A stretch of DNA of 64,000 bases from Pseudonocardia nigra (GTDB lineage: Bacteria > Actinomycetota > Actinomycetes > Mycobacteriales > Pseudonocardiaceae), in contig NZ_JAHKRK010000010.1 in assembly GCF_019396355.1 (NCBI RefSeq), positions 1 to 64,000 of the forward strand. The letters are read 5' to 3'. Positions 8,434 through 64,000 of the stretch are shown piece by piece (the stretch's first letter is position 1; each line of letters opens with the position of its first letter). Position numbers and translations under genes: made by a program. The notes under the pieces were generated by a model that saw only the letters and a list, made by a program, of their open reading frames with translations, was not told the origin of the DNA and did no database searches.

Positions 8434-9196
8434 CCCGCGCCCCCGAGGAAGAACCGCACGTAGCGGTCGTCCATGTGGTCGAGGCCCAGCAGGACCAGGA
8501 AGTCGCGCAGTCGAAGGCGGGGTCGCGGGCGGGCGGGCCGCACACCCACGCTCCCAGGCGCAGGTAACCGCGCAGCAGCGGCGGCATCGGGGCCCGGCTC
8601 CGGGGGGCGACCAGCGGCGGGCGCCACGGCACCAGCGGCCGCACCCGGTAGGGCTCCGGGGCGAGGTGCCGCGCGAGCACCCGGTCCCAGACACCGGCGG
8701 CGAGCGCACCGCCGTCGGCGAGCGGGACGCTCGCGCACCCGGCGAGCCAGCGGTTGCCGGTCAGCAGCATGTACCGGGCGATCCCGGCCCAGACCAGGCC
8801 GACGACGGCCCCGTCCCGGTGGTCGGGGTGCACGCAGGACCGGCCCGCCTCCACCAGCGACGGCCGCAGCGGGGCGAGGCCGGCCATCGCGAACTCGGTC
8901 TCGGAGTACAGCCCGCCCGCGGCGCGGGCGCGCTCGGGCGGCAGCATCCGGTAGGTGCCGACGACCTCGCCGCTGACGTCCTCCCGCACCACCATGTGGT
9001 CGCAGTAGGGGTCGAAGCGATCGATGTCGAGGCCGGGCTCGGGTGTGGTGAGGACGGCGCCGAGCTCGCCGGCGAAGACCTGGTGGCGCAGCCGCTGGGC
9101 GGCGCGCACGTCGTCGGCGTCGGTGGTGAGGAGCAGCGAGTAGCGGCGGGACGCGGCGGCCTGCGGCGTCCTGGCGAGCACCTGCGACGAGGTCAC
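8430..9196 (-). CDS. GNAT N-acyltransferase (Rv3027c-like), apparent frameshift near the 3' end
   Basis: A GNAT-fold protein of the type adjacent to PlsC in many actinobacteria, probably handling an acyl donor in lipid metabolism. The GTG start reads [20 protein letters not shown]. The body includes [22 protein letters not shown] and [13 protein letters not shown]. After DPAFDCA (near 8506) the frame moves by one base, and the expected ending [20 protein letters not shown] then a stop is found in the other frame. A missing G in TGCGCGGAC explains it. The ending meets the PlsC start by a 4-base overlap, which supports the corrected frame. Confidence 0.8.
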
Positions 9197-9308
9197 GGGC
9201 TCTTGCTACGGGGCACAGGCAACGGGCGCGCCTGGACGAGCCGACGTCGCCGTGGCAGCGGGGTGAACACACGGCCGGCGGCGCCGGGCCGCCGGTTCCG
9301 GAAACACG

Positions 9309-9345
9309 CCGTGCCCCGGGCGGCCTGCGCCTGCCCGGGGCACGG
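9309..9345 (-). terminator. Strong hairpin after etfA
   Basis: Perfect 13-bp arms CCGTGCCCCGGGC (9309-9321) and GCCCGGGGCACGG (9333-9345) enclose an 11-base loop. It lies 27 bases beyond the etfA stop and before the GNAT gene on the same strand. No T-run follows, as is common for actinobacterial hairpins. It probably separates the etfBA unit from the GNAT-PlsC unit. Confidence 0.75.
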
Positions 9346-9371
9346 GAGCCCGCGGAACGATCCTCGGCGGA

Positions 9372-10319
9372 TCAGCCCTTGCGCTTGGTGATCTCCTCCT
9401 GGAGCTGGGGGGCGACCTTGAACAGGTCGCCCACCACGCCGAAGTCGGCGATCTCGAAGATCGGCGCCTCCGGGTCCTTGTTCACCGCGATGATCGTCTT
9501 CGAGGTCTGCATCCCGGCCCGGTGCTGGATCGCCCCGGAGATCCCCAGCGCGATGTACAGCTGCGGCGACACCGTCTTCCCGGTCTGGCCGACCTGGAAC
9601 TGGTGCGGGTAGTAGCCCGAGTCCACCGCCGCGCGCGAGGCACCCACCGCGGCCCCCAGGGAGTCGGCCAGCGCCTCCACGACCGCGAAGTCCTCGGCCG
9701 AGCCGACCCCGCGCCCACCGGACACCACGACCGTGGCCTCGGACAGCTCGGGCCGGTCACCACCGGTGATCGGCTCCCGCGCGGTCACGGTCGCGCTGAG
9801 CCCCTGCGCCGCCGGCACCGACACGGTCTCCTCCGCACCCGCACCCGGGGACGGCTCGACGTCCACCGCACCGGCCCGCACCGTGATCACCGGATGCGCG
9901 GTGTTCGCCTTCGCCTCGGCGATGTACGCGCCACCGAAGATCGAGTGCGTCACCCCGTCGGCACCCACCGCGACCACGTCCGACAGCAACGCCGAGTTGG
10001 TGCGCACCGCGACCCGGCCGGCGATCTCCTTGCCGTCGGCCGACGTGCCGATCAGCACCGCCGCCGGCTCGGTTGACCCGATCAGCTCCACCAGCACCGA
10101 CACCTCCGCCGCCAGGAACTCCGACGCGTCGGTCTCGGCGACGTAGATCTTCTCCGCGCCGTACTCGGTGAGCCCGTCGGCCAGCTTCGCCGCCGTCCCG
10201 GCCGGGCCGACCACCACCGCCGACGGCTCACCCAGCCCACGCGCCGCGGTCAGCAGCTCGTAGGTGGACTTCTTGACCTCACCCTCGAGGTGGTCGACGA
10301 GGACCAGCACCTCAGCCAT
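9372..10319 (-). CDS. etfA: Electron transfer flavoprotein alpha subunit
   Basis: FAD-binding subunit of the soluble heterodimer that carries electrons from acyl-CoA and other dehydrogenases towards the quinone pool. The 315-residue protein starts [23 protein letters not shown]. The C-terminal FAD domain shows [27 protein letters not shown], the [14 protein letters not shown] block and INVD-like [19 protein letters not shown]. Length is typical. It follows etfB with a 32-bp gap, as in M. tuberculosis fixA-fixB (Rv3029c-Rv3028c), and is closed by the hairpin at 9309. Confidence 0.97.
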
Positions 10320-50005: not shown

Positions 50006-51148
<1,143 letters not shown>

Positions 51149-51216
51149 GACCCCCAGTATCCCCCGCACCCGACCGGTCCCGCCGCCGACGGTGCCCGAG
51201 ACCACGTCCGCATCGC

Positions 51217-51263
51217 GCGAACGGCACGTTCGAACAAACCTATTGAGCGAAAGTGCCGTTCGC
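51217..51263. terminator. Hairpin of the dispersed family at the end of the nicotinate operon
   Basis: Arms GCGAACGGCACGTTCG (51217-51232) and CGAAAGTGCCGTTCGC (51248-51263) pair with one mismatch. The loop contains CAAACCTATTG, nearly the loop of the 45070 hairpin. It touches the stop of the hydrolase gene (51264) and lies before ispG on the same strand, so it probably insulates ispG from the operon. Confidence 0.82.
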
Positions 51264-52154
51264 TCAACTGAGCTGGGCGAGGATCTTGCGGAGCGTGTCC
51301 AGGGCCGCCGCCGTTTCGTCCCAGAACACCATGTGCCCGGCGCCGGGGACCTCGACCAGGCGTGCACCCGGGTTCGCGGCCGCCGCCTCCGCCGCCCCCT
51401 CGGCCGTGACGACCGGGCTCTCCCCGCCGTACACGAGCACGGTCGGGGTAGGGACCTGCGACCACGTCGCGAAGAAGTCCTCGCTCTCGAAACCGGCGTG
51501 GGTGGCCGCGATCGCCTCCGCGTCGCAGCTCGACAGCCAGCGGGCCCGCAGCTCCTGCTCCCGCCGCGGCCAGCGCGGCCACGACCGGGCCACCTCGTCG
51601 GCGTCGGTGCCCCGCTGCGCCTGCTCCACCTGGCCGAGGAACGCCTCCAGCGTGGTCGGGTACGGCCCGCGCCCGGGCCCGCTCATCGGCGGGTCGACGA
51701 GCACGGTGCCCCGCAGCGGCACGCCCAGGCATGTCCGGTGGCTGAACGCCGTCGCGGAGCAGGCGGACAGCCACCGGTGACTCAGCAGTGCCGCGGTGAC
51801 GGCCGCGATCCGGGCGCCCATCGAGTGCCCGAGCAGCAGCGGCCGGTCCAGGCCGAGCCCGTCGAGCACGGCGACGGTGTCGTCGGCGTAGTCCTCGAGC
51901 GTGTACGACTTGCCCGAGTCGGAGAGCCCCCGGCCGCGCACATCCACGACGATCGGCCGGACGAGGTCGGTGAGCTCCCGCGCCACGAAGTCCATCGTCA
52001 CCGCCGGGCTCGTGATGCCGGGCAGCACGACGAGCGGCACGCCGTCGCCGCCGTAGTCGAGGACGTGCAACCGCAGGTCGCCCGAGCGCACCCAGCGCGA
52101 CACGGCGGGCACCTCGGCGAGGTCGGCCAGCGCGGACTGCAGGACGGCCCTCAC
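51264..52154 (-). CDS. nicD: Alpha/beta hydrolase, probable N-formylmaleamate deformylase (NicD)
   Basis: Releases formate from N-formylmaleamate to give maleamate. 296 residues: oxyanion region [13 protein letters not shown], nucleophile S111 in [10 protein letters not shown], acid-bearing strand after VLVYGGESP, and H274 in GAGHMVFW. The assignment rests on the family and on its place in a complete nicotinate cluster. Odd: between the nucleophile helix and the strand VLVDPPMSG there is an extra stretch of about 20 residues ([17 protein letters not shown]). It is encoded by DNA with a 10-bp inverted repeat. GTG start overlaps the amidohydrolase stop (GTGA). Last gene of the operon. Confidence 0.85.
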
Positions 52155-52804
52155 CGCGCCACCTCCGCAGCCACGATCAGCCCGCGCAGGTAGCCGAGCG
52201 CGTCGTTCAGCTCGATCACGTCCCCGTACTTCGCCTGGATGTCGAACAGGTTGGCCTCGTGCGGCGCCTGCGCGCGGTCGCCCACGCACTCCCTCGGCAC
52301 GAGCACGGAGAAGCCGCTCTGCACCGCGTCGACGGCGGTGGCCCGCACGCACCCGCTGGTGGTGGCGCCGCAGACGAGCACGGTGTCCACCCGCAGGCCG
52401 GCGAGCAGCGCGGCGAGCGTGGTCCCGAAGAACGCCGAGGCGCCCTTCTTCGTGATCAGGTGATCGCGCGGGTCGACCGGCAGCCGGTCGTCCACCGCGA
52501 CGGCCCGGCTGCCCTCGCGCAGCGCCCGCATGCCCGGCGCCTTGGTCAGCCAGGTGACGGCGTCCCCGTCGGCCTCCGCCGGGGTGTAGGCGATCGCCGT
52601 GAACACCACGGGCACGCCCGCGGGGCGCCCGGCCTCGATCAGCTCGGTGGTCGCCGCGACCACGGCCGACAGGTCGGCCCCGGTCGGGGCGGCCGGGTCG
52701 GTGAACCCGTGCGTCAGGTCGACGACGACGATCGCCGGCCGCGCCCCGCGGCGCACCGGCGCCCCGAACCCGGCCCGCTCGTACACGGCGTCCTGCGAGG
52801 TCAT
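52151..52804 (-). CDS. nicF: Isochorismatase-family maleamate amidohydrolase (NicF)
   Basis: Hydrolyses maleamate to maleate and ammonia. 217 residues. The cysteine-hydrolase triad is D29 in AIVVVDLTHGFTDP, K119 in LITKKGASAFFGT, and C152 in GATTSGCVRATAVDA; the cis-peptide region precedes the cysteine. The ASAFFGT block after the lysine is typical of maleamate and carbamoylsarcosine amidohydrolases. Overlaps both neighbours by 4 bases. Substrate inferred from the cluster. Confidence 0.88.
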   Translation of the reverse strand: MTSQDAVYERAGFGAPVRRGARPAIVVVDLTHGFTDPAAPTGADLSAVVAATTELIEAGRPAGVPVVFTAIAYTPAEADGDAVTWLTKAPGMRALREGSRAVAVDDRLPVDPRDHLITKKGASAFFGTTLAALLAGLRVDTVLVCGATTSGCVRATAVDAVQSGFSVLVPRECVGDRAQAPHEANLFDIQAKYGDVIELNDALGYLRGLIVAAEVAR

Positions 52805-53313
52805 GCACTCCTCCTGTCCAGCTGCTCCTGCAGCGCCGCGCGGCGGCGGGTCGCGCAGTCGTCCACGGCCTCGACGATCGTCTGGTAGCCCGTGCACCGG
52901 CACAGGTTCGACGCGACCACCTCGCGGATCTCCTCCTTCGTCGCCTCCGGCCGCTCGGCGAGGTAGCCCTCGGCGAGCATCAGGAACCCGGGCGTGCAGA
53001 ACCCGCACTGCAGCCCGTGGTGGGCGGAGAACGCCTGCTGCAGGTCCGAGAGCGTCCCGTCGGGCGCGGCGAGCGACTCGACGGTGCGGATGTCGGCGTC
53101 CTCGGCCTGCGCGGCGAACATCAGGCACGCCCGCATCGGCGCGCCGTCGACGAGCACGGTGCACGCCCCGCAGATGCCGTGCTCGCAGCCCACGTGCGTG
53201 CCCGTGAGGCCGAGGTCGTGGCGCAGCACGTCGACGAGCGTGCGGCGCGGCTCGATCGCGAGGTCGTGCCGCTCACCGTTGACGGTCAGCTCGATCAGCT
53301 GCACCTCGGTCAT
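52801..53313 (-). CDS. 2Fe-2S subunit of the nicotinate hydroxylase
   Basis: Small iron-sulfur subunit of a xanthine-dehydrogenase-family enzyme, 170 residues. N-terminal plant-type ferredoxin domain: CEHGICGACTVLVDG with the fourth cysteine in MRACLMF. C-terminal helical domain: LQCGFCTPGFLML and SNLCRCTGYQTIVEAV. Carries electrons from the Mo site to FAD. Overlaps the large-subunit stop and the nicF start by 4 bases each. Equivalent of the NicA small subunit or NdhS. Confidence 0.93.
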   Translation of the reverse strand: MTEVQLIELTVNGERHDLAIEPRRTLVDVLRHDLGLTGTHVGCEHGICGACTVLVDGAPMRACLMFAAQAEDADIRTVESLAAPDGTLSDLQQAFSAHHGLQCGFCTPGFLMLAEGYLAERPEATKEEIREVVASNLCRCTGYQTIVEAVDDCATRRRAALQEQLDRRSA

Positions 53314-55667
53314 GAGATTCCCTCCAGTGCTCGGTGGACGGTCTCCCGCGCGATCGGGGTGTCGTCCAGCTCGACGCCGGTGGCGCGCAGCGCGTCGTTC
53401 ACGGCGTTGAGCACGGCGGCGGGCGCGCCGATCGTGCCGCCCTCCCCCGCGCCCTTGGCACCGTTCGCGGTCAACGCGCACGGCGTCTCCAGGTGGTGGA
53501 TCGCGACGTCGGGGATCTCGGCGGCCGTCGGCACCTTGTACTCCATGAAGCTCGGCGCCTGCGGCTGCCCGGCGGCGTCGTAGGTGACCTGCTCGAACAG
53601 GGCCCCGGCGATGCCCTGCGCGATGCCGCCGCGCGCCTGGCCCTCCACGACCTGCGGGTGGATCGCCACCCCGCAGTCCTCCACGCACACGTACCGCAGG
53701 ATCTCGACGCCCCCGGTGCCCGGGTCCAGCTCGACGACCGCCGCATGCGTGGCGTTGGAGAACGTGCCGTCGCCGCCGACGTCGAAGCTCGCGGTGGCCG
53801 TCAGACCCGGGCCGACGCCCTTGGGCAGCAGGTGCGCCCGCAGGTAGGCGACGTCGGCGAGCTCGGCGAACGACAGCCGCCGACCCGGGTCGTCCCGCAG
53901 CCGCACCCCACCCGCGCCGTCCAGCTCGCAGGCGTCGACGTCGGCCTCCAGCAGGTGCGCCGCGATCTCCCGCAGCTGCTCCCCGAGCTGGACCGACGCC
54001 GCCGCGACGGCGCTGCCGCCGATCGTGATCGAGCGGCTGGCGAACGAGCCCCAGCCGTAGGTGATCCGGTCGGTGTCACCCTGCACGATCTTGACCTGGG
54101 CGATGTCGAGCCCGAGCCGGTCGGCCACGATCTGCGCCATCGTCGTCTCGTGGCTCTGCCCGTGGCTCATCGTCCCGGTGGTGACGCTGACGGTGCCCGA
54201 GGTGTCCATCCGGATCTCGGAGATGTCGAACCCGGGCACCACCTGCATCTTCCGCTGCGCGAACGCGCACGAGCCGTAGCCGGTGCGCTCGGAGAAGCAG
54301 GCGTAGCCGATCCCGATGATCCGATCCGAGTCGCGCACGTCGTACCAGCCCTCGTCCCGCACCACCTGCTCGCAGAGGTCGAGCGACTCGCGGTAGGAGC
54401 CCGGGTCGTAGGTGATCCCGTTGACGCCGGTGTAGGGGAACACCGTGATGACGTTGCGGCGCCGGACCTCGACGGCGTCCATGCCCAGCTCGCGGGCGGC
54501 GCGCTCCATGAGCCGCTCCATGACCATCACGTACTGCGGGCGGCTCACCCCTCGGTACGGTGCGGTGGGCGCCTTGTTCGTGGTGACGGCGCGGCCGCGC
54601 ACCCGGTAGGCGGGCACCCGGTACACCGACGGCATCTCCGCCGAGGCCATCAGCGGCTCGATGCCCGCCGTGAACGGGTAGCAGGAATAGGCGCCCATGT
54701 CGCACACGACGTCGGCGTCGAGGGCGAGGATGCGGCCCTCGGCGTCGAACGCTGCGCGCACGTCGTAGCGCTGCTCCCTGGCGAGGAACGCCGCGGTGAG
54801 CGCGTCCTTGCGGTCCTCGATCCACTTCACCGGGCGGCGCAGGCGCAGCGCGGCAGCGGCGGCCGCGATCTCCTCGCGCCCCACCACGCACTTCTGCCCG
54901 AACCCGCCGCCCATGTCCGGGACGGTGACCCGGACCTGCTTCTCGTCCAGCCCGACGCAGCCGGCGAGCACGGTCCGCACCTGGTGCGGCACCTGTGTGG
55001 CGGTCTGTACCCGAAGCTGCTCGTCGCGGTCGTCGAAGGAGGCGACGACGCCGCGGGTCTCCAGCGGCAGCGCGTTCTGCCGGCCGGTCTTCGTCCGCAC
55101 CCGGACGACGCACGGCGCCTCGGCGAAGACGTCGTCGATGCCCTCGGTGGCGAACAGCGAGACGTCCACCAGCGTGTTGCGTGGCGCCTCGGCGTGCACC
55201 AGCGGGGCGCCCTCGGCGAGAGCGGCGGTGTCGGAGACGACCGGGTCCAGCTCCTCGTACTCGACGACGGCGGCCTCGAGCCCGTCCTCGGCGGCGTACG
55301 GGTCGCGGGCCACGACGATCGCGACCGGCTCGCCGACGTAGCGGACCCGGTCGCGGGCGAGCACCGGCATCGCGGTGGGCACGAACTCCTGCGGCGGCCG
55401 GTCGAGCAGCGCGGTGATGTCGCGGAGGTCCAGATCGGCCGCCGAGAAGGCGGCGACGACGCCGGGCACCGCGCGCACCTCGTCCAGGTCGACCGCAACG
55501 ATCCGGGCGTGCGCCACCGTGCTGCGGACGAACTGGGCGTGCAGCATCCCGGGCAGCACGATGTCGTCGACGAACCGGCCCCGCCCGGCCAGCAGCCGCG
55601 GGTCCTCGCGGCGCGGGACGGACGCGCCGATCCAGGCGCCGTCCCGGCGGAAGTGCGCTTCGGTCAT
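53310..55667 (-). CDS. Molybdopterin-binding large subunit of the nicotinate hydroxylase
   Basis: 785 residues; hydroxylates the pyridine ring, probably nicotinate to 6-hydroxynicotinate, with water as oxygen source. Begins EDPRLLAGRGRFVDDI (family opening). Mo-cofactor motifs: DMGGGFGQK, PYRGVSRPQ, GTMSHGQSHETT, and GAKGAGEGGTIGAP with catalytic E742. The CO-dehydrogenase active-site loop with its selenated cysteine is absent, so CO oxidation is excluded. Specificity for nicotinate is inferred from the neighbouring pathway genes. ATG at 55667 overlaps the FAD-subunit stop. Confidence 0.92.
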   Translation of the reverse strand: MTEAHFRRDGAWIGASVPRREDPRLLAGRGRFVDDIVLPGMLHAQFVRSTVAHARIVAVDLDEVRAVPGVVAAFSAADLDLRDITALLDRPPQEFVPTAMPVLARDRVRYVGEPVAIVVARDPYAAEDGLEAAVVEYEELDPVVSDTAALAEGAPLVHAEAPRNTLVDVSLFATEGIDDVFAEAPCVVRVRTKTGRQNALPLETRGVVASFDDRDEQLRVQTATQVPHQVRTVLAGCVGLDEKQVRVTVPDMGGGFGQKCVVGREEIAAAAAALRLRRPVKWIEDRKDALTAAFLAREQRYDVRAAFDAEGRILALDADVVCDMGAYSCYPFTAGIEPLMASAEMPSVYRVPAYRVRGRAVTTNKAPTAPYRGVSRPQYVMVMERLMERAARELGMDAVEVRRRNVITVFPYTGVNGITYDPGSYRESLDLCEQVVRDEGWYDVRDSDRIIGIGYACFSERTGYGSCAFAQRKMQVVPGFDISEIRMDTSGTVSVTTGTMSHGQSHETTMAQIVADRLGLDIAQVKIVQGDTDRITYGWGSFASRSITIGGSAVAAASVQLGEQLREIAAHLLEADVDACELDGAGGVRLRDDPGRRLSFAELADVAYLRAHLLPKGVGPGLTATASFDVGGDGTFSNATHAAVVELDPGTGGVEILRYVCVEDCGVAIHPQVVEGQARGGIAQGIAGALFEQVTYDAAGQPQAPSFMEYKVPTAAEIPDVAIHHLETPCALTANGAKGAGEGGTIGAPAAVLNAVNDALRATGVELDDTPIARETVHRALEGIS

Positions 55668-56506
55668 CGGCTGCCCGCCTCCTCGCAGGCTCGGGCGACG
55701 AGCGTGCGGGTGAGCGCGCGGCGGTAGTGCGCGCTCGCCCCCGGCTCGTCGCGGGGGTCGATCGCCTCCGCCGCGGCTGCCGCCGCCCGTGAGTGCAGAA
55801 CATCGCCAGGGCGACCACTCCCACTCACGACGTCCGCCAGCACGGCCTCGGCCGCCGGCACCCGCAGCGGCACGGGGGCGACGCCGCCGAGCACCACGCG
55901 CGGGGCGTCCAGGTCCACCGCCGCGGCCACGATCGCGAAGTCGCCGCGCCGCTCGGCGTACTCCGTGAGCGCTGCCCGCGGCGCGGGCCGCGGGAACACC
56001 ACCTCGACGATCAGCTCGTCCGGCTCGAGCGCGGTGGTGAACACGCCCTGGAAGAACTCCCCCGCCGGGATGCTCCGCCGCCCGCCCGGCCCCTCCGCCA
56101 CGATCTGCGCGTCGAGCAGCATCGCGAGCAGGCACCACTCGGCGGTGGCGTCGGCGTGCGCGAGGCTGCCGCCGACCGTGCCGCGGGTGCGGATCGGCAG
56201 GTGCCCGACCCAGCGCATCGCGTCGGAGAGGACGCGGAACCCGGGCCCGAGGTCGGCGGTCTCGACGGCGTGGTGGGTGACGAGCGCCCCGATCCGCAGC
56301 GTGTCCCCGTCGTGGCGGATCGCGCCGAGCTCGGTGATCCGGCCGATGTCGATGAGGTGCTCGGGCCGGGCGAGGCGGAAGTTCATCATCGCGACCAGGC
56401 TCTGGCCGCCCGCGATGACCTTCGCGTCGTCCCCCAGCTCGGCGAGGAGCCCCACCGCGCCCGCGATCGTGCGGGCGCGGTGGTAGGTGAACGCGGCGGG
56501 CTTCAT
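55664..56506 (-). CDS. FAD-binding medium subunit of the nicotinate hydroxylase
   Basis: 280 residues of the CoxM/CutM type. FAD motifs VIAGGQSLVAMMNFRLA near residue 30 and RGTVGGSLAHADATAEW near residue 110; C-terminal CO_deh_flav_C domain (ALTEYAERRGDFAIVAAAV). Accepts electrons from the 2Fe-2S subunit. Its presence makes the enzyme a three-subunit flavoprotein, unlike the two-subunit NicAB of Pseudomonas putida, which passes electrons to cytochromes. Starts 4 bp after the transporter stop. Confidence 0.93.
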   Translation of the reverse strand: MKPAAFTYHRARTIAGAVGLLAELGDDAKVIAGGQSLVAMMNFRLARPEHLIDIGRITELGAIRHDGDTLRIGALVTHHAVETADLGPGFRVLSDAMRWVGHLPIRTRGTVGGSLAHADATAEWCLLAMLLDAQIVAEGPGGRRSIPAGEFFQGVFTTALEPDELIVEVVFPRPAPRAALTEYAERRGDFAIVAAAVDLDAPRVVLGGVAPVPLRVPAAEAVLADVVSGSGRPGDVLHSRAAAAAAEAIDPRDEPGASAHYRRALTRTLVARACEEAGSR

Positions 56507-56510
56507 GTGC

Positions 56511-57926
56511 TCAGCCTCGGACAGCCGCGTCGGACGCCGGGCCGGGGGTCACCACGACGGCCTCCTCGTCGCCGGTGATGTGGTCGAGCTCGCGGCCGCG
56601 GGTCTCGGGTGCGGCGACGGCCATGAAGATCACCGCGGCGACCACGACCACGCCCATCAGCGCGAACGTCAGCGGCAGGCCGAGCACCGGCCACAGCAGG
56701 CTGCCAAAGATCAGCGGGACGAACCCGGTGACCGCTCGGCTCGACGACGACGCCCAGCCGAAGCCGCTGGCCCGCAGCTCCGTCGGGTACAGCTCCGAGA
56801 CGTAGGCGTACATCACCGGGATCACCACGAGCGCGAAGAACCCGAAGACGGCGATCATCACGATGGCCGCGGTCGGCGAGCCGAGCACGAGCGAGAACAC
56901 CAGCAGCGACGCCGCCGACAGCACCGCGGCGACCCCGATGACCCACTTGCGGCCGATCACCTCGACCAGCAGCACCGCCGTGACCACCCCCAGGATGCCG
57001 ACCGCGTTCATCACCGTCGTGCTGCCGAACGCGGCCACCTCACCCATGCCCTGAGCCCGCAGGATCGACGGCATCCAGGCCAGCGCGGCGTAGTACACGA
57101 CCATCACGGAGATGAACAGCGACCAGGCCACCCCGGTGATCTTCGCGTTGAAGGCCCACACCAGCCGCAGCTGCTCGACGCCTGCGGCCAGCCCGCGCTT
57201 GCGGGACGCGGCGGGCGCCGGGATCACGGTCGGGATCTCGTAGGGCTCCGGCGCCGCGCCCGTGCGCATCACCATGTCGTCGATGACGGCACGGGCCTCG
57301 GCCTCGCGACCGGTGCGCGCCAGGTAGAGCGGCGACTCCGGCACGCCACGGCGCACCCAGAACAGCAGCAGCGCCGGCAGCACCATCAGCGCCAGCATCC
57401 AGCGCCAGTTGCCGGTGACCGGGACGAGCATGGTGGCGGTCAGCCCGGCGAAGGTCGTGCCGATCGGCCACCAGCCGTCCATCGCCGCGAGCACCCGGCC
57501 GCGTTGCTTGCGCGGGGAGAACTCGCTGACGATCGCGTAGTCCACCGGGATGCAGCCGCCGAGGCCGACGCCGGCGAGGAAGCGCAGCACCAGGAAGATC
57601 TCCCAGCTCGGCGACAGCGCACCCAGCACGGAGAACAACGCGAAGATCATCAGAGTGAGGCTGAAGGCCTTCTTGCGGCCCACCCGGTCCGCGACCGTGC
57701 CCCAGGCGACCGCGCCCACGGCCATGCCGACGAGGTTCGCCGTGGCCACGAGCCCGCGCTCACCGGTGGAGAGGTCGAACTCGGTGCCGAGCAGCGGCGT
57801 GAGGAAGCCGTTGAGGGCGACGTCCCAGGCGTCGAACATGTAGCCCAGCCCGCCGATGATGAAGATCTTGCCTTGGACGCCCCACTTCCACGGGAGGTCC
57901 TGGACGACCTGGTCGCCTGTACGCAT
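56511..57926 (-). CDS. MFS transporter, probable nicotinate uptake (NiaP-like)
   Basis: 471 residues, twelve membrane segments. Opening helix GGLGYMFDAWDVALNGFLTP; the A motif GTVADRVGRKKAFSL lies between helices 2 and 3. PESPLYLARTGRE follows helix 6, and YVSELYPTELRASGFGWASS occurs in the second half, as in the sugar/metabolite subgroup that includes niacin transporter NiaP. The last ~25 residues are hydrophilic. It lies between the monooxygenase and hydroxylase genes (24- and 4-bp gaps), which strongly suggests that nicotinate is the substrate. Confidence 0.87.
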   Translation of the reverse strand: MRTGDQVVQDLPWKWGVQGKIFIIGGLGYMFDAWDVALNGFLTPLLGTEFDLSTGERGLVATANLVGMAVGAVAWGTVADRVGRKKAFSLTLMIFALFSVLGALSPSWEIFLVLRFLAGVGLGGCIPVDYAIVSEFSPRKQRGRVLAAMDGWWPIGTTFAGLTATMLVPVTGNWRWMLALMVLPALLLFWVRRGVPESPLYLARTGREAEARAVIDDMVMRTGAAPEPYEIPTVIPAPAASRKRGLAAGVEQLRLVWAFNAKITGVAWSLFISVMVVYYAALAWMPSILRAQGMGEVAAFGSTTVMNAVGILGVVTAVLLVEVIGRKWVIGVAAVLSAASLLVFSLVLGSPTAAIVMIAVFGFFALVVIPVMYAYVSELYPTELRASGFGWASSSSRAVTGFVPLIFGSLLWPVLGLPLTFALMGVVVVAAVIFMAVAAPETRGRELDHITGDEEAVVVTPGPASDAAVRG

Positions 57927-57950
57927 GTCGGGCTCCGTTCCGGGGAGGGG

Positions 57951-59219
57951 TCAGCGCACGAACGGGTAGGAGAAGGACTCGAGGTCGGCGTCGTCGCGCG
58001 GCGTGCCGCGCCACAGCCAGTCGTAGGACACGTCGGACTCGCCGTTGAACGCCCGCAGCTGCCGGTCTCGTTCCTGCTGCTCGGGGCCGTCGGGCAGGTG
58101 GTAGAAGCGCATGTTCTCCAGGGACGCGTCCTGGACCATGCCGGCATGGGTGGCGCGGCGGGCCACGTACCGGGTGAGGGCGCCCGCGATGCCGTCGCGG
58201 GTCACCGCGCCCAGCTCCTCGGCGAGGACGGCCGCGTCCTCCATCGCCTGCGACGCGCCCTGCGCCTGGTAGGGCAGCATCGCGTGGCAGGCGTCGCCGA
58301 GCAGTGCGACGTGGCCGTCCACCCACACCGGGTCGCGGTGCCGGCGGAACATCGCCCACTTCGACGCGTCGCCCTCGGCCTTGGACAGCATCGCCGCCAC
58401 CCGGTCGTCCCACCCGGGGAAGGCGTCGACCATCTCGTCGGCGGTGGCCGGGGCCGACCAGGTCCGCTCGATGTCGAGGGTGTTCGGGACGATCGCGACG
58501 ACGTTGAGGTACTCCCCGCCGCGGATCAGGTAGTGCACGAGGTGCCGGTCCGGCCCGTACCAGATCGTGGAGTGGAATCGGTCCATCAGGAAGCGGGTCG
58601 CGGGGTCGGCCGCGATCTTGTCGCCGGGGATGAGGGCCCGGTAGGCCATCTCCCCGGAGAAGGCGAGCGTGTCGGGCAGGCCCATGGCGTCGCGGACCGC
58701 GGAGCGGACGCCGTCGGCGCCGACCAGCACGTCGCCGTCGAAGCGCCTGCCGTCGGTGGTGATCGCGACCGGCCGGCCGGGGTCGGCCACGTCGATGTCC
58801 ACGACCTGCGCGCCGGTGTGCACCTCGACGACCGGGCCGGGGCCCTGCGGGTCGAGGCAGGCATCGAGCAGCACCTTGTGCAGGTCCGCCCGGCGGTAAT
58901 GCCAGTACGGCGCGTTGAACTCGCGCTTGACCCGGTCGCCCAGCGGAAGGGTGGCGATGATGCTGCCGTCCTGCCAGCGCCGGCGCACCTGGTCCTGCGG
59001 CTCGGTGTGGATGGCCTCGAGCTGCCTGCGCAGCCCCAGGCCCAGCAGGACGCGGCTGGCGTTGGGCGCGGTCTGGATCCCCGCGCCCACCTCGCCGAGC
59101 TGGGGAGCCTGCTCCAGGACGGTGGTGCGCAGTCCGCGCCTGCGCAGCGCGAGCGCGGTGGTGAGGCCACCGAGGCCGCCACCGGCGATGGTGACCGCGT
59201 AGGACTGGCTGGCCGGCAC
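57951..59219 (-). CDS. nicC: 6-hydroxynicotinate 3-monooxygenase (NicC)
   Basis: Single-component flavin monooxygenase, decarboxylating 6-hydroxynicotinate to 2,5-dihydroxypyridine with NADH and O2. 422 residues. FAD motifs: GGGLGGLTTALALRRRG at the N-terminus, VLVGADGVRSAVRDAMG in the middle, and ALLGDACHAMLPYQAQG (GD motif) near residue 310. GTG start preceded by GGAGG four bases away; the longer upstream frame crosses the operator and is rejected. First gene of the seven-gene minus-strand operon. Specificity inferred from the cluster; salicylate hydroxylase relatives look similar. Confidence 0.88.
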   Translation of the reverse strand: MPASQSYAVTIAGGGLGGLTTALALRRRGLRTTVLEQAPQLGEVGAGIQTAPNASRVLLGLGLRRQLEAIHTEPQDQVRRRWQDGSIIATLPLGDRVKREFNAPYWHYRRADLHKVLLDACLDPQGPGPVVEVHTGAQVVDIDVADPGRPVAITTDGRRFDGDVLVGADGVRSAVRDAMGLPDTLAFSGEMAYRALIPGDKIAADPATRFLMDRFHSTIWYGPDRHLVHYLIRGGEYLNVVAIVPNTLDIERTWSAPATADEMVDAFPGWDDRVAAMLSKAEGDASKWAMFRRHRDPVWVDGHVALLGDACHAMLPYQAQGASQAMEDAAVLAEELGAVTRDGIAGALTRYVARRATHAGMVQDASLENMRFYHLPDGPEQQERDRQLRAFNGESDVSYDWLWRGTPRDDADLESFSYPFVR

Positions 59220-59252
59220 TGTTCCTCCCGGACGTCGTCGATCTCGGATCCA

Positions 59253-59269
59253 CTGTCCAGAGTGGACAG
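59253..59269. promoter_or_regulatory. Palindrome upstream of the nicC operon (candidate NicR operator)
   Basis: CTGTCCA-GAG-TGGACAG is a perfect 7-3-7 palindrome 34 bp before the nicC start. It is the strongest dyad in the 259-bp gap between nicC and the MarR gene. Position and size suit a MarR-type site. Another weaker dyad around GGAAC / GTTCC lies near 59358-59376. Confidence 0.6.
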
Positions 59270-59478
59270 GTGGCGTGGCGGGGTGCGCCGCGAACCCTCC
59301 GCAGCTCCCGGATACCCGAGCGGCACCCGGCAGAGATGATCCGAACACTGACGATCCAGGAACGCAAGGGGTTCCGCAAGCTGTAACGCGTCAGAAACCG
59401 AACAGTCGGGAACGCCACCCCCGGGCGGCGCCCGAAGAACCCCTGATCAGCCGCCTGACTCGAGGCCGAACGGAGCCC

Positions 59479-59973
59479 TCAGTCCTCGACCAGGCTCTCC
59501 CAGTGCTCCGACAGCGCCGTGAGCCTGCGCAACAGCGCCGCCTGCTCCGCGCCGTCGTACCCCAGCATGAGCAGCCGGTCGAGGTCGCGGGCCCGGCGGT
59601 CGGTCTCGCGCAGGACCGCCTCACCCTCCGGCGTGAGGCGCAGCAGGCGCTTGCGGCCGTCCTCGACGGGCCGCTCCCGCGTGATGAGCCCGCGGTCCTC
59701 CAACCGTCGGACGATGCTCGCCATCGTGGAGCGGTCCAGCGCGACGGACGAGGCGAGCGACCCCTGCTCCGCCCCGGGATAGGCGTCGACGGCGGTGAGC
59801 ACCGCGAACTGCGGGCCGGTCAGCACCGGGTCGACCAGCCGCACCCAGGCCGCGGTGTAGGCCTGGTGCAGCCGGCGCGCGACGTAGCCAGGCGCGGCGA
59901 GGAGCGCAGGTGGCGCAGGCAGGCCCTTCGAGGGGTCGATTCCTGCACGTCCCGCCGGTCCCCCGCTCGTCAC
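59479..59973 (-). CDS. nicR: MarR-family regulator (NicR-like)
   Basis: 164 residues. Winged HTH: TGPQFAVLTAVDAYPG, then SLASSVALDRSTMASIVRRL as recognition helix and ERPVEDGRKRLLRLTPEGE as the wing. It sits between the two divergent nicotinate transcription units, as NicR does in Pseudomonas putida, where 6-hydroxynicotinate relieves repression. The effector is inferred. GTG start at 59973; 131 bp separate it from nicX. Confidence 0.88.
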   Translation of the reverse strand: MTSGGPAGRAGIDPSKGLPAPPALLAAPGYVARRLHQAYTAAWVRLVDPVLTGPQFAVLTAVDAYPGAEQGSLASSVALDRSTMASIVRRLEDRGLITRERPVEDGRKRLLRLTPEGEAVLRETDRRARDLDRLLMLGYDGAEQAALLRRLTALSEHWESLVED

Positions 59974-60049
59974 GGCACCCAGCTAAGCACGGGGTGCGCG
60001 GTGTCCGCCGGGCCGGGGCAGCGCCCCTCCCCCTTGACCTGAAGGGACC

Positions 60050-60063
60050 GACAAGGGATTGTC
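60050..60063. promoter_or_regulatory. Palindrome upstream of nicX
   Basis: GACAA-GGGA-TTGTC is a perfect 5-bp dyad between the MarR gene and nicX. TTGACC at 60034 could be a -35 element, but no well-spaced -10 box is seen. It shares only the GACA/TGTC theme with the palindrome at 59253, so a common regulator is only suggested. Confidence 0.45.
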
Positions 60064-60104
60064 AGCCTTCGGACTATATCCCCCGGACTCCTGGAGGGAC
60101 TCCC

Positions 60105-61151
60105 ATGGACCAGAACCTGTTCAACGAGATCTGTCTGCAGCAGCTCACGCTCAGCGGCGTGCACGACGGCGAGACCGTGGCCGTGCTGACCCGCGGCGAC
60201 GAGCGCGTGGAGTACGCGAACGCGTTCATGTGGGCGGCGCAGAAGCTGGGCGCGAGCACGTTCCACCTGCGGCTGCCCAACCCCACGTCGGCGTCGGGCG
60301 CGTGGGCCGTGGGCGACTCGGGCCTCGCGGACAACCCGCTGGCCGTCGAGGCGCTCAAGCGGGCCGACATACTCGTCGACTGCACGTTCCTGCTGTTCAG
60401 CAAGGAGCAGTTCGAGATCCAGGCCGCCGGCACCCGCATCCTCACCGCGGTCGAGCCCGCTCCCCTGCTGGCCCGGCTGATGCCGACCACCGAGCTGCGG
60501 GAGCGGGTCGAGGTCGGCGCCGAGCTGCTGGCCAAGGCGCAGACGATGCGGATCACGAGCCCGCACGGCACCGACGTGACCTACCGGCTCGGGGTCTACC
60601 CGACGATGAGCGAGTACGGCTACACCGACCAGCCCGGCCGGTGGGACCACTGGCCGGCGGCGTTCGTGTTCACCGGCGGCGCCGACGACGGCGTCGACGG
60701 CAAGATCGTGCTCGCGCCCGGCGACGTGCTGCTGCCGTTCAACACCTACGTCCAGACCCCGGTGGAGATCACCATCGAGGCCGGCTTCATCCGCGACATC
60801 CGCGGTGCCGCCGGGTCCTCGGGCCTGGACGCCGACCTGCTGTCGTCCTACATCCGCTCGTTCGACGACCCTCGGGGTTACGGGATGAGCCACGTCGGCT
60901 GGGGCCTGGACGAGCGCGCGCACTGGCACGGGCTCACCCAGTTCGGCGGCGGCATGGGCATGGAGCTGCGCAGCTTCTACGGCAACGTCATGTTCTCCAT
61001 CGGCCCGAACAACGAGCTCGGCGGCCCCAACGACACCGCTTGCCACTTCGACATCCCCATGCGCGGCTGCTCCCTGTACCTGGACGACGAGCTGATCGTC
61101 GATGCCGGCGAGCTGACCGTGCCGGAGATGCGCCCGGCGGGACGCCGGTGA
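60105..61151 (+). CDS. nicX: 2,5-dihydroxypyridine 5,6-dioxygenase (NicX)
   Basis: Fe(II) extradiol-type ring-cleaving enzyme of the aminopeptidase T-like fold; opens 2,5-dihydroxypyridine to N-formylmaleamate. 348 residues, the family length. Probable iron ligands are E170 in TMSEYGYTD and H314/D316 in ACHFDIPMRG, matching the Glu...His-x-Asp set of the Pseudomonas enzyme. ATG at 60105 with GGAGGG eight bases upstream; the longer frame through the promoter is rejected. First gene of the divergent unit nicX-nicE. Confidence 0.92.
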   Translation: MDQNLFNEICLQQLTLSGVHDGETVAVLTRGDERVEYANAFMWAAQKLGASTFHLRLPNPTSASGAWAVGDSGLADNPLAVEALKRADILVDCTFLLFSKEQFEIQAAGTRILTAVEPAPLLARLMPTTELRERVEVGAELLAKAQTMRITSPHGTDVTYRLGVYPTMSEYGYTDQPGRWDHWPAAFVFTGGADDGVDGKIVLAPGDVLLPFNTYVQTPVEITIEAGFIRDIRGAAGSSGLDADLLSSYIRSFDDPRGYGMSHVGWGLDERAHWHGLTQFGGGMGMELRSFYGNVMFSIGPNNELGGPNDTACHFDIPMRGCSLYLDDELIVDAGELTVPEMRPAGRR

Positions 61152-61903
61152 GCACCGTGCGCGACCACCACATCGGGATGATCGTCCCGAGCTCCAACCT
61201 CACGATGGAGACCGAGCTCCCCCGGATGCTCCGGGCGCGGGAGGAGATCGAGCCGGACGACCGGTTCGTGTTCCACTCCGCCCGGGCCCGGATGCAGCAC
61301 GTCACGCCGGAACAGCTGCGCGCGATGAACGCCCAGGCCGAGCGGGCCGCCGCCGAGCTCGCCGACGCCCGACCGGACGTCGTCGCCACCGCCTGCCTGG
61401 TGGCGATCATGGCCCAGGGCCCCGGCTACCACTGCACCGCGGAGGACGCGATCACCGCGGCGCTGCGCGCGGAGGGCGCCGACGCGCCGGTCGTGTCGAG
61501 CGCAGGCGCCCTGCTGTCGGGCATCGCGGCGCTCGGGGCGCGGAAGGTCGCGATCATCACCCCGTACCTGAAGCCGCTGACGCAGGCCGTCGCCGACTAC
61601 CTCGAGGACGCGGGTGTCGAGGTGGTCGACGCGCTGTCGCTTGAGGTGCCCGACAACCTCGCCGTCGCCCGCCTCGACCCGGCCGACCTGCGCGACCACT
61701 GGAAGAAGCTCAGCCTGGCGGGCGCCGACGCGCTCGTGCTGTCGGCGTGCGTGCAGATGCCGTCGCTGCCCTCGATCCAGCCGGTCGAGGACGAGGCCGG
61801 CATCCCGGTGCTGTCCGCGGCCACCGCGACGACGCACCGGATCCTCACCGAGCTGGGGCTGGAGCCGCGGGTGCCGGGGGCGGGGCGGCTGCTGGCGGGC
61901 TGA
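61148..61903 (+). CDS. nicE: Maleate cis-trans isomerase (NicE)
   Basis: Converts maleate to fumarate, the last step of the pathway. 251 residues of the Asp/Glu racemase superfamily. The two catalytic cysteines are C83 in VATACLVAIMAQG and C201 in LVLSACVQMPS, as in characterised maleate isomerases. Opening motif HIGMIVPSSNLTMETELP. GTG start overlaps the nicX stop (GTGA), so the two are translationally coupled. Confidence 0.93.
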   Translation: MSTVRDHHIGMIVPSSNLTMETELPRMLRAREEIEPDDRFVFHSARARMQHVTPEQLRAMNAQAERAAAELADARPDVVATACLVAIMAQGPGYHCTAEDAITAALRAEGADAPVVSSAGALLSGIAALGARKVAIITPYLKPLTQAVADYLEDAGVEVVDALSLEVPDNLAVARLDPADLRDHWKKLSLAGADALVLSACVQMPSLPSIQPVEDEAGIPVLSAATATTHRILTELGLEPRVPGAGRLLAG

Positions 61904-61916
61904 GCTCCGTCGCGGA

Positions 61917-61971
61917 TGTCAGGAAAGCCACGTTCCTGACGCTCAGTGGCAGCAACGTGGCTTTCCTGACA
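61917..61971. terminator. 18-bp hairpin of the dispersed family after nicE
   Basis: Arms 61917-61934 and 61954-61971 pair perfectly (core TCAGGAAAGCCACGTT) around a 19-base loop. It begins 14 bases after the nicE stop and is very similar to the hairpin at 16699. Probably ends the nicXE transcript. Confidence 0.85.
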
Positions 61972-62240
61972 GTCCTGCCGGAGCTGCGGGGGTAAGCGAG
62001 CCACCGGGTCTCGCATGCCGCAGCGCGCTGCTCGGTGGCACCATGTGGAGCCCAGGTCCGCGACACGATCACGCGCTGATGGTCGTCCGCAGAGATCGGC
62101 TCAGCGCCTTCAGCCCGTGATCGGCACCGCAACGGCCACCGCCCGAACTCCACTGCCGACCTACGCCGCGATCACGGGCAGAAGATCCCCTCGGAGTTCC
62201 CACGACGGCCATCCGCCCGGGGATCGCCGAGGCGAGCGGC
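61972..62240. other. Intergenic, no gene seen
   Basis: Together with the preceding hairpin this makes a 337-bp gap between convergent genes. I find no reading frame with a ribosome-binding site or recognisable product and no tRNA-like structure. Confidence 0.6.
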
Positions 62241-62717
62241 TCACGTCCGGCCCTTGTCCTCCTGCGCACTCTGCAGCGTCGACGAGTGCGGCAGCCAGGT
62301 GGCGAGCTCGACCGGCCACCCGTCCGCCTCCAGCGTCGCGACGACGGCCGGATCGTCGTCGAGCACCGACACGACCTCCCGCACCGTCGCCAGCCGCCGC
62401 AGCACGGCCCGCTTGAGGTAGCGCGCGGGCCGGTAGTCGTCGTCGTCCCGCATCACCAGCGGGCCGGTCGGCAGGTCGTGCCGGGCGAGCCAGCGCTCGG
62501 TGAGTCGCCGGTTCCGCTCCGGGCGGCCGGTCAGGTAGATCACGTCGTGGTCGACCAGCGCCTTGCGCAGCCGCTCGGCGCCCTCGGTCAGGAGCGGGTC
62601 GCGGTCGGCGGCCTGGAAGAACCGCTCCCAGCGCTGCGGGCGGGCGTCCAGGTGGTGCAGACGGTGGGTGACGTCGGCCAGCACGCCGTCGATGTCGAAG
62701 ACGGCGAGTGTCTTCAC
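62241..62717 (-). CDS. HAD-family phosphatase, polynucleotide-kinase 3'-phosphatase-like domain
   Basis: 158 residues. Motif I is FDIDGVLADVTHRLHHL near residue 7, motif II YLTGRPERNRRLTERWL, motif III lysine in RPARYLKRAVLRRL and motif IV SVLDDDPAVV. This order and the THRLHHL segment resemble the phosphatase half of T4 polynucleotide kinase and small acid-phosphatase-like HAD proteins. No kinase domain is attached. GTG at 62717 has GGAG eight bases upstream; a longer frame to 62861 is possible but has Pro/Ala-rich sequence. Substrate unknown. Confidence 0.8.
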   Translation of the reverse strand: MKTLAVFDIDGVLADVTHRLHHLDARPQRWERFFQAADRDPLLTEGAERLRKALVDHDVIYLTGRPERNRRLTERWLARHDLPTGPLVMRDDDDYRPARYLKRAVLRRLATVREVVSVLDDDPAVVATLEADGWPVELATWLPHSSTLQSAQEDKGRT

Positions 62718-62806
62718 CGACGAATCTCCGCCGCGCTCCGCTTCGGCGTCGATCCGTGGGACAGGCATTGGCGGGCGAGCATCGGGGGCAGGGGCGGGTA
62801 CTGCGG

Positions 62807-64000
62807 TCACTGCAGAGTGATCGGGTTGACAAGGTCCGCGATGAACAACAGTCCGCTCCACGCGATGAACACCAGCGCGACGACGTAGGCCACCGGCATC
62901 AGCTTGGCGACGTCGACCGGTCCGGGATCGGGCTTCCCCCGGAGCCGAGCGATCCTGCGCTTGATCGACTCCCAGATGGCGGGGAAGATCTGTCCGCCGT
63001 CCAGCGGCGGGATCGGTAGCAGGTTGAACAGGAACAACGAGATGTTCACGGCGGCCAGCAGCTGAAGGAAGATGGACAACTCCGCTGCCGCCGGCCGCTC
63101 CAGCGCAAGGATCTCGCCGCCGAGGCGGGAGGCGCCGACGATGCCGACGGGGCCTTCCCTGTCGCGGTCCTCCCCCAGGAACACCGAACCGAAGATCCCG
63201 GGCATGCGCTGCGGCAGCTCGATGAGTGCCTGCCCGGTCCGGGTGACGACACCCATCATCTCCTCGACGACGGTCCCGAGGTTCTGTCGCTCGTAGACCA
63301 CCACCGGCGACAGGCCGAGGAAGCTGCCCTGGACGTACTCGCCCTCGTCCTGGAGGCTCGCCAGCTCCGTGGTGATCAACGTGGGCCGCAGGTCGATGAG
63401 CTGGCTGTCCCGTTCGACGGTCACGGTGACGGTGCCGGACGCTTCGCGGATCGCGCGTTGCAGTTGAGGCCAGTCATCCTGGTCGTAGCGCTGCCCCTCG
63501 AAGGCGACGATCCGGTCTCCTGCTCGGAAGCCTGCCGCCGCCGCCGGTGTCGGAGGCGCCCCCGGCGGGCACTCGGTCGTCGGCTCGGATGCGCGCACGA
63601 CACACGCGCTCACCGAGCTGACGGTCGTCGATGTCCCGGTGGGCAGACCGATCGCCATGAGCACGATCGCGAACAGCACGACCGCGAGGATCAGGTTCAT
63701 GAACGGGCCCGCGAACATCACGATGATCCGCTTCCACGGCGCTCGCAGGTAGAACTGCCGGTGCGCGTCCTCGGGCAACACGTCCATCGCCGACTGCCTG
63801 CGGGCGTCGTCGATCAGCCCCTGGAACGGGCCGGTGCGCCGGCTGCGCCCGAGCGTCTCGCCCTTGGCCGGCGGGATCATCCCGATCATCCGGACGTACC
63901 CGCCGAGCGGAATGGCCTTGAGCCCGTACTCGGTCTCGCCGACCTTCCGCGACCAGACCGTCTTCCCGAACCCGACCATGAACTCGGGAACCTTGATCCC
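62807..64000 (-). CDS. rip1: Site-2 intramembrane metalloprotease Rip1/RseP (5' end beyond the window)
   Basis: About 397 residues are visible, from GIKVPEFMVGFGKTVWSRK at the window edge; the HExxH segment lies before it, outside the window. Seen: YGLKAIPLGGYVRMIGMIPP, membrane helix RIIVMFAGPFMNLILAVVLF, a PDZ domain around AGFRAGDRIVAFEGQ, and the zinc-ligand motif LFNLLPIPPLDGGQIF. It cleaves anti-sigma factors and other membrane proteins. In M. tuberculosis it is next to ispG; here the nicotinate cluster and the HAD gene separate them. Confidence 0.96.
   Translation of the reverse strand, partial: GIKVPEFMVGFGKTVWSRKVGETEYGLKAIPLGGYVRMIGMIPPAKGETLGRSRRTGPFQGLIDDARRQSAMDVLPEDAHRQFYLRAPWKRIIVMFAGPFMNLILAVVLFAIVLMAIGLPTGTSTTVSSVSACVVRASEPTTECPPGAPPTPAAAAGFRAGDRIVAFEGQRYDQDDWPQLQRAIREASGTVTVTVERDSQLIDLRPTLITTELASLQDEGEYVQGSFLGLSPVVVYERQNLGTVVEEMMGVVTRTGQALIELPQRMPGIFGSVFLGEDRDREGPVGIVGASRLGGEILALERPAAAELSIFLQLLAAVNISLFLFNLLPIPPLDGGQIFPAIWESIKRRIARLRGKPDPGPVDVAKLMPVAYVVALVFIAWSGLLFIADLVNPITLQ

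Follow-up and report, generated by a model that had tools for sequence, protein, structure and literature searches.

A 64,000-nucleotide window of Pseudonocardia nigra (assembly GCF_019396355.1, contig NZ_JAHKRK010000010.1, forward strand) carries at positions 51264-61903 a cluster of ten intact genes, arranged in two operons, that very probably constitutes a complete aerobic locus for the catabolism of nicotinate to fumarate, with the substrate assigned from genomic context. This pathway, already proposed in a first-pass annotation of the sequence, is the best reading of the cluster because of the matches of its lower enzymes and the co-occurrence of one hydroxylase with one monooxygenase in loci encoding the ring-cleaving dioxygenase NicX; conserved synteny and two shared regulatory sites strengthen it further. 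The cluster looks like a known pathway locus in a new form, scattered over several actinobacterial families, in which the first two enzymes and the operator look independent of the Pseudomonas system.

In the proposed pathway, a major facilitator superfamily (MFS) protein would import nicotinate, and a three-subunit enzyme with molybdenum (Mo), 2Fe-2S and flavin adenine dinucleotide (FAD) centers would use water to hydroxylate C6, yielding 6-hydroxynicotinate. The FAD of this hydroxylase would hand two electrons to an acceptor, probably oxidized nicotinamide adenine dinucleotide (phosphate), NAD(P)+. An FAD monooxygenase would then swap the carboxyl group for a hydroxyl group to give 2,5-dihydroxypyridine, NicX would open the ring to N-formylmaleamate, NicD would remove formate, NicF would remove ammonia, and NicE would make fumarate. 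A MarR-family protein would repress both operons at two conserved sites and be released by an acid of the pathway, probably 6-hydroxynicotinate. We infer the substrate, the regiochemistry, the electron acceptor, the effector and the binding of the sites by MarR.

We compared the cluster with 80 named NicX loci (L039-L118), the best 80 of 126 found, which lean toward close NicX kin (unnamed loci L010-L038 were left out). Fifty-six of them carry a hydroxylase of the window's type, defined by at least 60% identity (type A), while 15 carry another hydroxylase (37-40%) and nine have none in reach. The window-type monooxygenase is present in 48 of the 56 type A loci, and the other eight (L043, L045, L054, L061, L064, L073, L096 and L110) end inside hydL or mfs, before its place. 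It was found in none of the 15 loci with another hydroxylase (both flanks are complete in ten; L044 has a 33% relative) and in one of the nine without a hydroxylase in reach (L057; L101 has a 46% relative), so that 48 of the 49 named loci with this monooxygenase also have this hydroxylase. Among the 48 type A loci with nicC, the genes hydS, hydL, hydM and nicX are present in all, nicD and nicF in 47, nicE in 45, mfs in 44 and marR in 36, and all ten genes were matched within reach in 29. Gene blocks are shuffled between genera yet kept together. Type A loci occur in Pseudonocardiaceae, Streptosporangiaceae, Nocardiopsidaceae and Geodermatophilaceae, and with tens of loci conserved across these families a chance assembly is excluded.

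Because loci with other hydroxylases have other company, the NicX module appears to serve several upper modules, with the upper module of the window specific to its own kind of locus. The reverse combination is seen in a 5.7-Mb plasmid record of Embleya (L123), which keeps hydL (79%) and nicC (73%) beside a NicX of another lineage (38%) and is, judging by these identities, a swap of the ring-cleaving gene.

Three of the lower enzymes, NicX, NicF and NicE, match proteins of known structure. Pfam and NCBIfam families agree with the roles first assigned to nine of the cluster's genes; NicX has no match in either database at the thresholds used, and aligns over 331 residues with P. putida NicX (7cn3, 296 bits). 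The NicX iron ligands (His265, Ser302, His318 and Asp320 of PMC7910607) are kept in 83 of 83 NicX compared, 80 from the named loci plus those of L119-L121. Further pocket residues that were checked are conserved too. For the remaining proteins we counted residues taken to be catalytic from their folds, using as denominator the type A loci in which each gene was aligned. NicF scores 235 bits to 4l07 and 159 bits to 3ot4/3uao, of which 3uao is presumably Bordetella NicF, and its Asp29, Lys120 and Cys152 are kept in 55 of 55 loci. NicE scores 252 bits to 4fq7 and keeps Cys83 and Cys201 in 53 of 53. In the NicD-like protein, Ser111 is kept in 54 of 55 loci, Asp154 (whose catalytic role is our own, putative assignment) in 55 and His274 in 53, and the misses fall outside the alignments. 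The NicD-like protein is 35-39% identical to the hydrolase of the alphaproteobacterial clusters L119, L121 and L122, and from its context N-formylmaleamate is its likely substrate. The first-pass annotation had described visible catalytic residues in all four proteins; this holds for the NicD-like protein, NicF and NicE, in 53-55 of the type A loci, and for the iron ligands of NicX, in which one substrate-binding histidine, His105 of the P. putida enzyme, is replaced by phenylalanine.

The gene set and order first proposed are confirmed, with start codons as we chose them (Table 1). Eight genes lie on the minus strand, and nicX and nicE on the plus strand. Seven minus-strand genes are chained by 4-base overlaps or by gaps of 4 bases (hydM-mfs) and 24 bases (mfs-nicC), and marR lies 259 bases upstream of the first gene of this operon. 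Overlaps of 4 bases occur at five junctions of the cluster, nicX/nicE included, bearing out the tight packing and divergent nicX-nicE of the initial description. The hydroxylase had been placed at 53310-56506, which omits its 2Fe-2S subunit; the enzyme is encoded at 52801-56506.

Table 1. Genes and predicted operators of the cluster, in window coordinates.
Feature	Length (amino acids)	Position	Strand	Matches or score
nicD-like alpha/beta hydrolase, likely N-formylmaleamate deformylase	296	51264..52154	-	Abhydrolase families (scored on longer frame)
nicF-like maleamate amidohydrolase	217	52151..52804	-	isochorismatase fold
hydS, hydroxylase 2Fe-2S subunit	170	52801..53313	-	Fer2, Fer2_2
hydL, hydroxylase molybdenum-cofactor subunit	785	53310..55667	-	Ald_Xan_dh_C, MoCoBD_1, MoCoBD_2
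hydM, hydroxylase FAD subunit	280	55664..56506	-	FAD_binding_5, CO_deh_flav_C
mfs, MFS transporter, candidate nicotinate importer	471	56511..57926	-	MFS_1/Sugar_tr
nicC analogue, FAD monooxygenase, likely decarboxylating 6-hydroxynicotinate 3-monooxygenase	422	57951..59219	-	FAD_binding_3
Predicted operator before the seven-gene minus-strand operon		59333..59357	-	matrix 34.8 bits
marR, MarR-family regulator	164	59479..59973	-	PF01047
Predicted operator before nicX-nicE, also upstream of divergent marR		60056..60080	+	matrix 24.8 bits
NicX, 2,5-dihydroxypyridine 5,6-dioxygenase	348	60105..61151	+	296 bits to 7cn3
NicE, maleate cis-trans isomerase	251	61148..61903	+	Asp/Glu-racemase-type family, 252 bits to 4fq7

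Upstream regions of type A loci share a 25-base-pair (bp) near-palindrome with the log-odds consensus GGATAGTACGTGTTCGGATTAATTT, and the best elements hold the palindrome TAATCCG-TGTT-CGGATTA. The element precedes nicX in 51 of 55 regions and nicC in 30 of 46. The four nicX genes that lack it all lie 33-50 bases behind a nicD of the same orientation. Of the 16 nicC genes that lack it, ten lie 27-62 bases after nicE, which places them inside an operon; in the remaining six, a site lies beyond the 200-base search range in L050 and L080, L088 breaks off at its locus end, and no such explanation applies to L112, L114 and L115. The matrix was trained on the type A loci in which sites were then counted, and its independent tests are the window, L123, L135-L137 and loci of other kinds. 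Sites above 14 bits occur in 57 of 57 type A loci (56 named and L123), in none of 24 loci with other hydroxylases (15 named, L122 and L124-L131), and in six of 12 loci without a hydroxylase in reach, one of them (L121) weak and inside nicX. The type A loci hold 136 sites: 109 precede a gene of the locus, 21 duplicate the same position on the opposite strand, and six lie elsewhere. In the window, which was outside the training set, the two sites are followed by a score of 5.0 bits, which is the first site on the other strand, and the maximum in five simulated 64-kb sequences was 10.4 bits. Searched against the 8.49-Mb genome, a pattern derived from these sites and containing open positions matched twice without mismatch, both times at the cluster, and once more with two mismatches; the reversed pattern has no match in that genome. 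A perfect 17-bp inverted repeat in the nicC leader was also considered as an operator and set aside, being complete in L040 and only partial in L039 and L042.

We infer that the local MarR protein binds the predicted sites. Among solved structures it is closest to PcaV (86.6 bits), followed by HosA (63.4 bits) and BpsR (47.9 bits). All three of these regulators respond to aromatic acids. The transporter's best NCBIfam match is the aromatic acid/H+ symport family, at 232.7 bits and thus under the cut-off of 418.55.

The hydroxylase is of the three-subunit CoxSML type with an FAD subunit, as first described, and both FAD_binding_5 and CO_deh_flav_C were found in HydM. All eight cysteines of HydS are kept in 56 of 56 type A loci and the Mo-site Glu742 of HydL in 55 of 56. 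In HydM, the glycine of the AGGQSL stretch is kept in 49 of 50 loci, and in the TVGGS stretch the second glycine is kept in 49 of 50 and the first in 23 (26 have alanine). Among solved structures, HydL scores 549 bits to quinoline 2-oxidoreductase, 457 to carbon monoxide (CO) dehydrogenase, and far fewer, 150 and 104, to the split Mo subunit of Eubacterium nicotinate dehydrogenase (3hrd). In a 38-row tree of Mo subunits, built by a quick method without bootstrap and including eight named type A rows, the window and L123, the window and its nic-locus orthologues form their own clade with a Shimodaira-Hasegawa-like approximate likelihood ratio test (SH-aLRT) support of 100. Quinoline 2-oxidoreductase (1t3q) pairs instead with the L044 subunit (SH-aLRT 98), outside this clade. 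The large-subunit phylogeny that had been suggested as a check separates the enzyme from CO dehydrogenase, quinoline oxidoreductase and 6-hydroxypseudooxynicotine dehydrogenase, in a tree whose rows include no proven nicotinate or nicotine dehydrogenase. We also rejected CO dehydrogenase as the function of this enzyme: the YxCSFR cysteine defines form I CO dehydrogenase, and the window has YRGVSR where 8uem has YACSFR. The first-pass annotation proposed that the enzyme passes its electrons to an acceptor other than that of NicAB, which may be so; by analogy with FAD-bearing nicotinate dehydrogenases, the acceptor is likely NAD(P)+. No maturation or quinone-carrier family was matched among the ten genes, and two XdhC-like genes score above cut-off elsewhere in the genome.

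The nearest relatives of the window's Mo-subunit clade are hydroxylases of other actinobacteria. Eight stretches around such relatives (L124-L131, of which L125 and L127 are short contigs) gave no nicX or nicC match, and annotated plasmid relatives bear only generic names among the rows listed. In L124, L127 and L128, the relative (46-54% in the Mo subunit) adjoins a further Mo subunit, which in L124 and L128 clusters with 6-hydroxypseudooxynicotine dehydrogenase in the same tree (support 100). A second Mo subunit would be consistent with successive ring hydroxylations, at C6 and then C2, of a 3-substituted pyridine, and these sister loci fit what is expected if the first enzyme hydroxylates C6 of such a compound. 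L128 also encodes a protein like 2,6-dihydroxypseudooxynicotine hydrolase (133 bits to 2jbw).

The monooxygenase was originally named NicC. It likely performs the same step as P. putida NicC, of which it is an analogue rather than an orthologue. Its best solved match is 4-hydroxybenzoate decarboxylase (8gsm, 264 bits), with 173.8 bits to NicC (5eow, from P. putida; PMC9304392), against 622 bits to 5eow for the true NicC of Mesorhizobium plasmid L119. In a 25-row tree, which includes 12 of 48 type A rows, the window and L057 and drew a long-branch warning from the tool, three alphaproteobacterial proteins and solved NicC form one group (100/100). The window monooxygenase and its orthologues are separate from it, near 4-hydroxybenzoate and vanillate 1-hydroxylases, through a weak joining branch (80/58). 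Two NicC residues, His211 and Tyr215, are kept in the window protein; its His226 and Tyr230 are kept in 48 of 48 type A loci, and its Gln49 in 47 of 48. 6-Hydroxynicotinate is the ring-nitrogen analogue of 4-hydroxybenzoate, and the monooxygenase sits with decarboxylating hydroxybenzoate-type enzymes.

Several observations weigh against assigning nicotinate as the substrate, chief among them that neither upper enzyme is orthologous to the proven Pseudomonas one, so that the substrate is read from context. The monooxygenase differs from NicC at His47 (glutamine), Cys202 (serine) and His302 (tyrosine). The glutamine and the tyrosine are those of hydroxybenzoate enzymes, and the solved chain 8uiq likewise has glutamine where 5eow has histidine. 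The fungal monooxygenase HxnX, which gene deletion showed to be needed for 6-hydroxynicotinate use in Aspergillus, has glutamine at the His47 position and keeps the histidine and tyrosine (PMC9304392), so the substitution is compatible with 6-hydroxynicotinate. The active site of the window protein thus resembles that of HxnX in these residues, and its divergence from NicC is weakened as an argument against nicotinate. In NicX, the substrate-binding His105 of P. putida corresponds to Phe98, and the H105A variant of the P. putida enzyme lost all activity (PMC7910607). Phenylalanine occupies this position in all 83 NicX, including those of the alphaproteobacterial L119-L121, among which L119 and L121 have NicAB-like pairs beside it; the more distant Embleya NicX has histidine. 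The idea that the exchange breaks NicX is thereby weakened, and in this NicX subfamily the substrate must be bound or protonated by other means. The MarR protein has Pro22, Tyr30, Arg33 and Tyr39 in place of the BpsR residues that hold 6-hydroxynicotinate (Tyr15, His23, Arg26 and His32; PMC6837509), keeping only the arginine. According to the same paper, P. putida NicR likewise is without these four residues, and their absence here therefore does not exclude the same effector. The comparison of loci also has its weak points. Five of the loci with another hydroxylase (L044, L053, L085, L102 and L116) are shorter than 21 kb, making the absence of the monooxygenase there weaker, and in L057 the monooxygenase (74%) has no hydroxylase within 10 kb of it. 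Of the 48 loci with both enzymes, L100, L103 and L106 gave no nicE, L080, L112, L114 and L115 no mfs, L068 neither nicD nor nicF, and 12 no marR, some of these cut by the locus end.

Three other functions were weighed against nicotinate catabolism. The cluster might act on a different 3-substituted pyridine that is two steps away from 2,5-dihydroxypyridine, for instance 3-succinoylpyridine derived from nicotine, a route with the same architecture (three-subunit Mo hydroxylase, FAD monooxygenase and the same four lower enzymes); a relative of the hydroxylase also lies near the 2,6-dihydroxypseudooxynicotine hydrolase-like gene of L128. We consider this improbable: the monooxygenase scores 35.6 bits to HspB (7da9), compared with 264 bits to the decarboxylating hydroxylase and 174-176 to NicC, and no amine oxidase or aldehyde dehydrogenase family was matched among the ten genes. 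A slightly slimmer chance goes to another pyridine carboxylate, for example 5-hydroxypicolinate, with the hydroxylase as an accessory. 5-Hydroxypicolinate yields 2,5-dihydroxypyridine by decarboxylative hydroxylation. A figure legend of PMC6692525 names HpoO as a monooxygenase of 5-hydroxypicolinate. On such a substrate, however, the hydroxylase would be idle, yet it accompanies this monooxygenase almost without exception in the named loci, and the picolinate-like Paracoccus locus L122 instead has a dioxygenase and an amidohydrolase. Mo hydroxylases, moreover, act on the carbon next to the nitrogen, which fits C6 of nicotinate. Least probable of all, in our view, is a role in detoxifying hydroxypyridines or in low-flux recycling of NAD-derived nicotinate, without support of growth. 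A MarR repressor would suit that role too, but having every step down to fumarate, together with a transporter gene and two operons, seems to us typical of catabolism.

Nicotinate catabolism by this cluster invites comparison with known systems. The nic locus of P. putida and Bordetella (NicAB, NicC, NicX, NicD, NicF, NicE and NicR/BpsR) shares NicX, NicF, NicE, a likely NicD, a MarR regulator and the overall route, and the nic-related plasmid locus L121 also has an MFS transporter. In the P. putida-type locus, however, the hydroxylase is the two-subunit NicAB, whereas the window encodes three subunits including FAD, and the monooxygenase is of another lineage; plasmid loci L119 and L121 have a 2Fe-2S gene and one large gene of ~1,180 residues instead of the window's three. 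Quinoline 2-oxidoreductase, the best solved Mo-subunit match, also hydroxylates next to a ring nitrogen and belongs to a different clade. The nicotinate dehydrogenase of Eubacterium barkeri (3hrd) is of the xanthine-oxidase family and has FAD and 2Fe-2S subunits as here, with its Mo subunit split in two. In Aspergillus nidulans, HxnX makes 2,5-dihydroxypyridine and shows the same glutamine, histidine and tyrosine pattern as the window monooxygenase; the HxnS/HxnX system has a single-chain hydroxylase and another route after 2,5-dihydroxypyridine. Bacillus nicotinate dehydrogenase also feeds a different route. With 2Fe-2S, flavin and Mo subunits of 20, 34 and 85 kDa (B. niacini, DSM 2923; PMC10331938), its make-up matches the 170, 280 and 785 residues of the window's subunits, a likeness in composition.

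We hold it somewhat better than even that the actinobacterial upper route was built from two recruits with origins separate from NicAB and NicC, one a further class of nicotinate 6-hydroxylase, the other a decarboxylating monooxygenase of the hydroxybenzoate lineage, both set on a shared 2,5-dihydroxypyridine module and under their own MarR operator. 2,5-Dihydroxypyridine would then be a hub with exchangeable front ends. If this is true, the locus shows how members of several actinobacterial families degrade vitamin B3, and that nicotinate hydroxylase and 6-hydroxynicotinate monooxygenase evolved repeatedly in combination with a single conserved module for ring cleavage. The hydroxylase is a candidate for a further class if it is unrelated to the Bacillus enzyme; it could serve to make 6-hydroxynicotinate, and the operator could provide a ready sensor. 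We found no account of this actinobacterial version among open-licence papers in the matches listed, a scope outside which the classical nicotinate papers fall, and the part of PMC10005059 consulted reports no 6-hydroxynicotinate 3-monooxygenase genes in its Rhodococcus genomes.

The cluster splits the neighbourhood of rseP (62807-63979) and ispG (within 50006-51367), occupying the interval 51139-62807, with ispG on the same strand as the nic operon and a short way downstream of it. Both neighbours are present in L040 and L135, and rseP only in L039. In two more Pseudonocardia genomes (L136/L138 and L137/L139), rseP adjoins the cluster and ispG lies ~8 kb past nicD, indicating more genes in the same gap. 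Among six genomes of the genus without a close NicX, four have their rseP and ispG matches 562-784 bases apart, compared with ~11.7 kb here; in the other two rseP falls under threshold, and G291 has a distant NicX relative. The short spacing in these relatives marks the cluster as an insertion common to a subgroup of the genus. A small HAD-like gene with a PNKP phosphatase-like match (62241-62861) lies between nicE and rseP, and relatives sharing the insertion have it at 73-87% identity.

Type A loci are sparse. Of 396 genomes sampled evenly across the phylum, only the window's own has a hydroxylase with more than 55% identity, and eight have a hydroxylase match at E <=1e-180. The monooxygenase is matched at E <=1e-150 in 13 of 298 genomes of the order, its own included, and NicX at E <=1e-20, distant matches included, in 100 of 390 genomes of the family.

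The survey also revealed NicX loci of other kinds. A second kind carries another Mo hydroxylase, and no NicC-like gene was found in its members (L048, L051, L053, L056, L062, L070, L078, L085, L090, L091, L102, L105, L116 and L118). L048, the sole one annotated, also encodes a PPDK-type ATP-binding protein, a PEP-mobile-domain protein and CoxG; the first step in such loci may use ATP, and 3-hydroxypyridine is our guess at the substrate. On a Paracoccus seriniphilus plasmid (L122), nicX, nicD, nicE and nicF are separated by ~9 kb from a Mo hydroxylase; the space between holds an aromatic-ring dioxygenase and an amidohydrolase, and the front end looks like a picolinate-type one. In a Nonomuraea locus with nicX, nicE, nicF and nicD and no Mo hydroxylase match (L047), a quite different FAD monooxygenase (8786-9976) stands directly before nicX.

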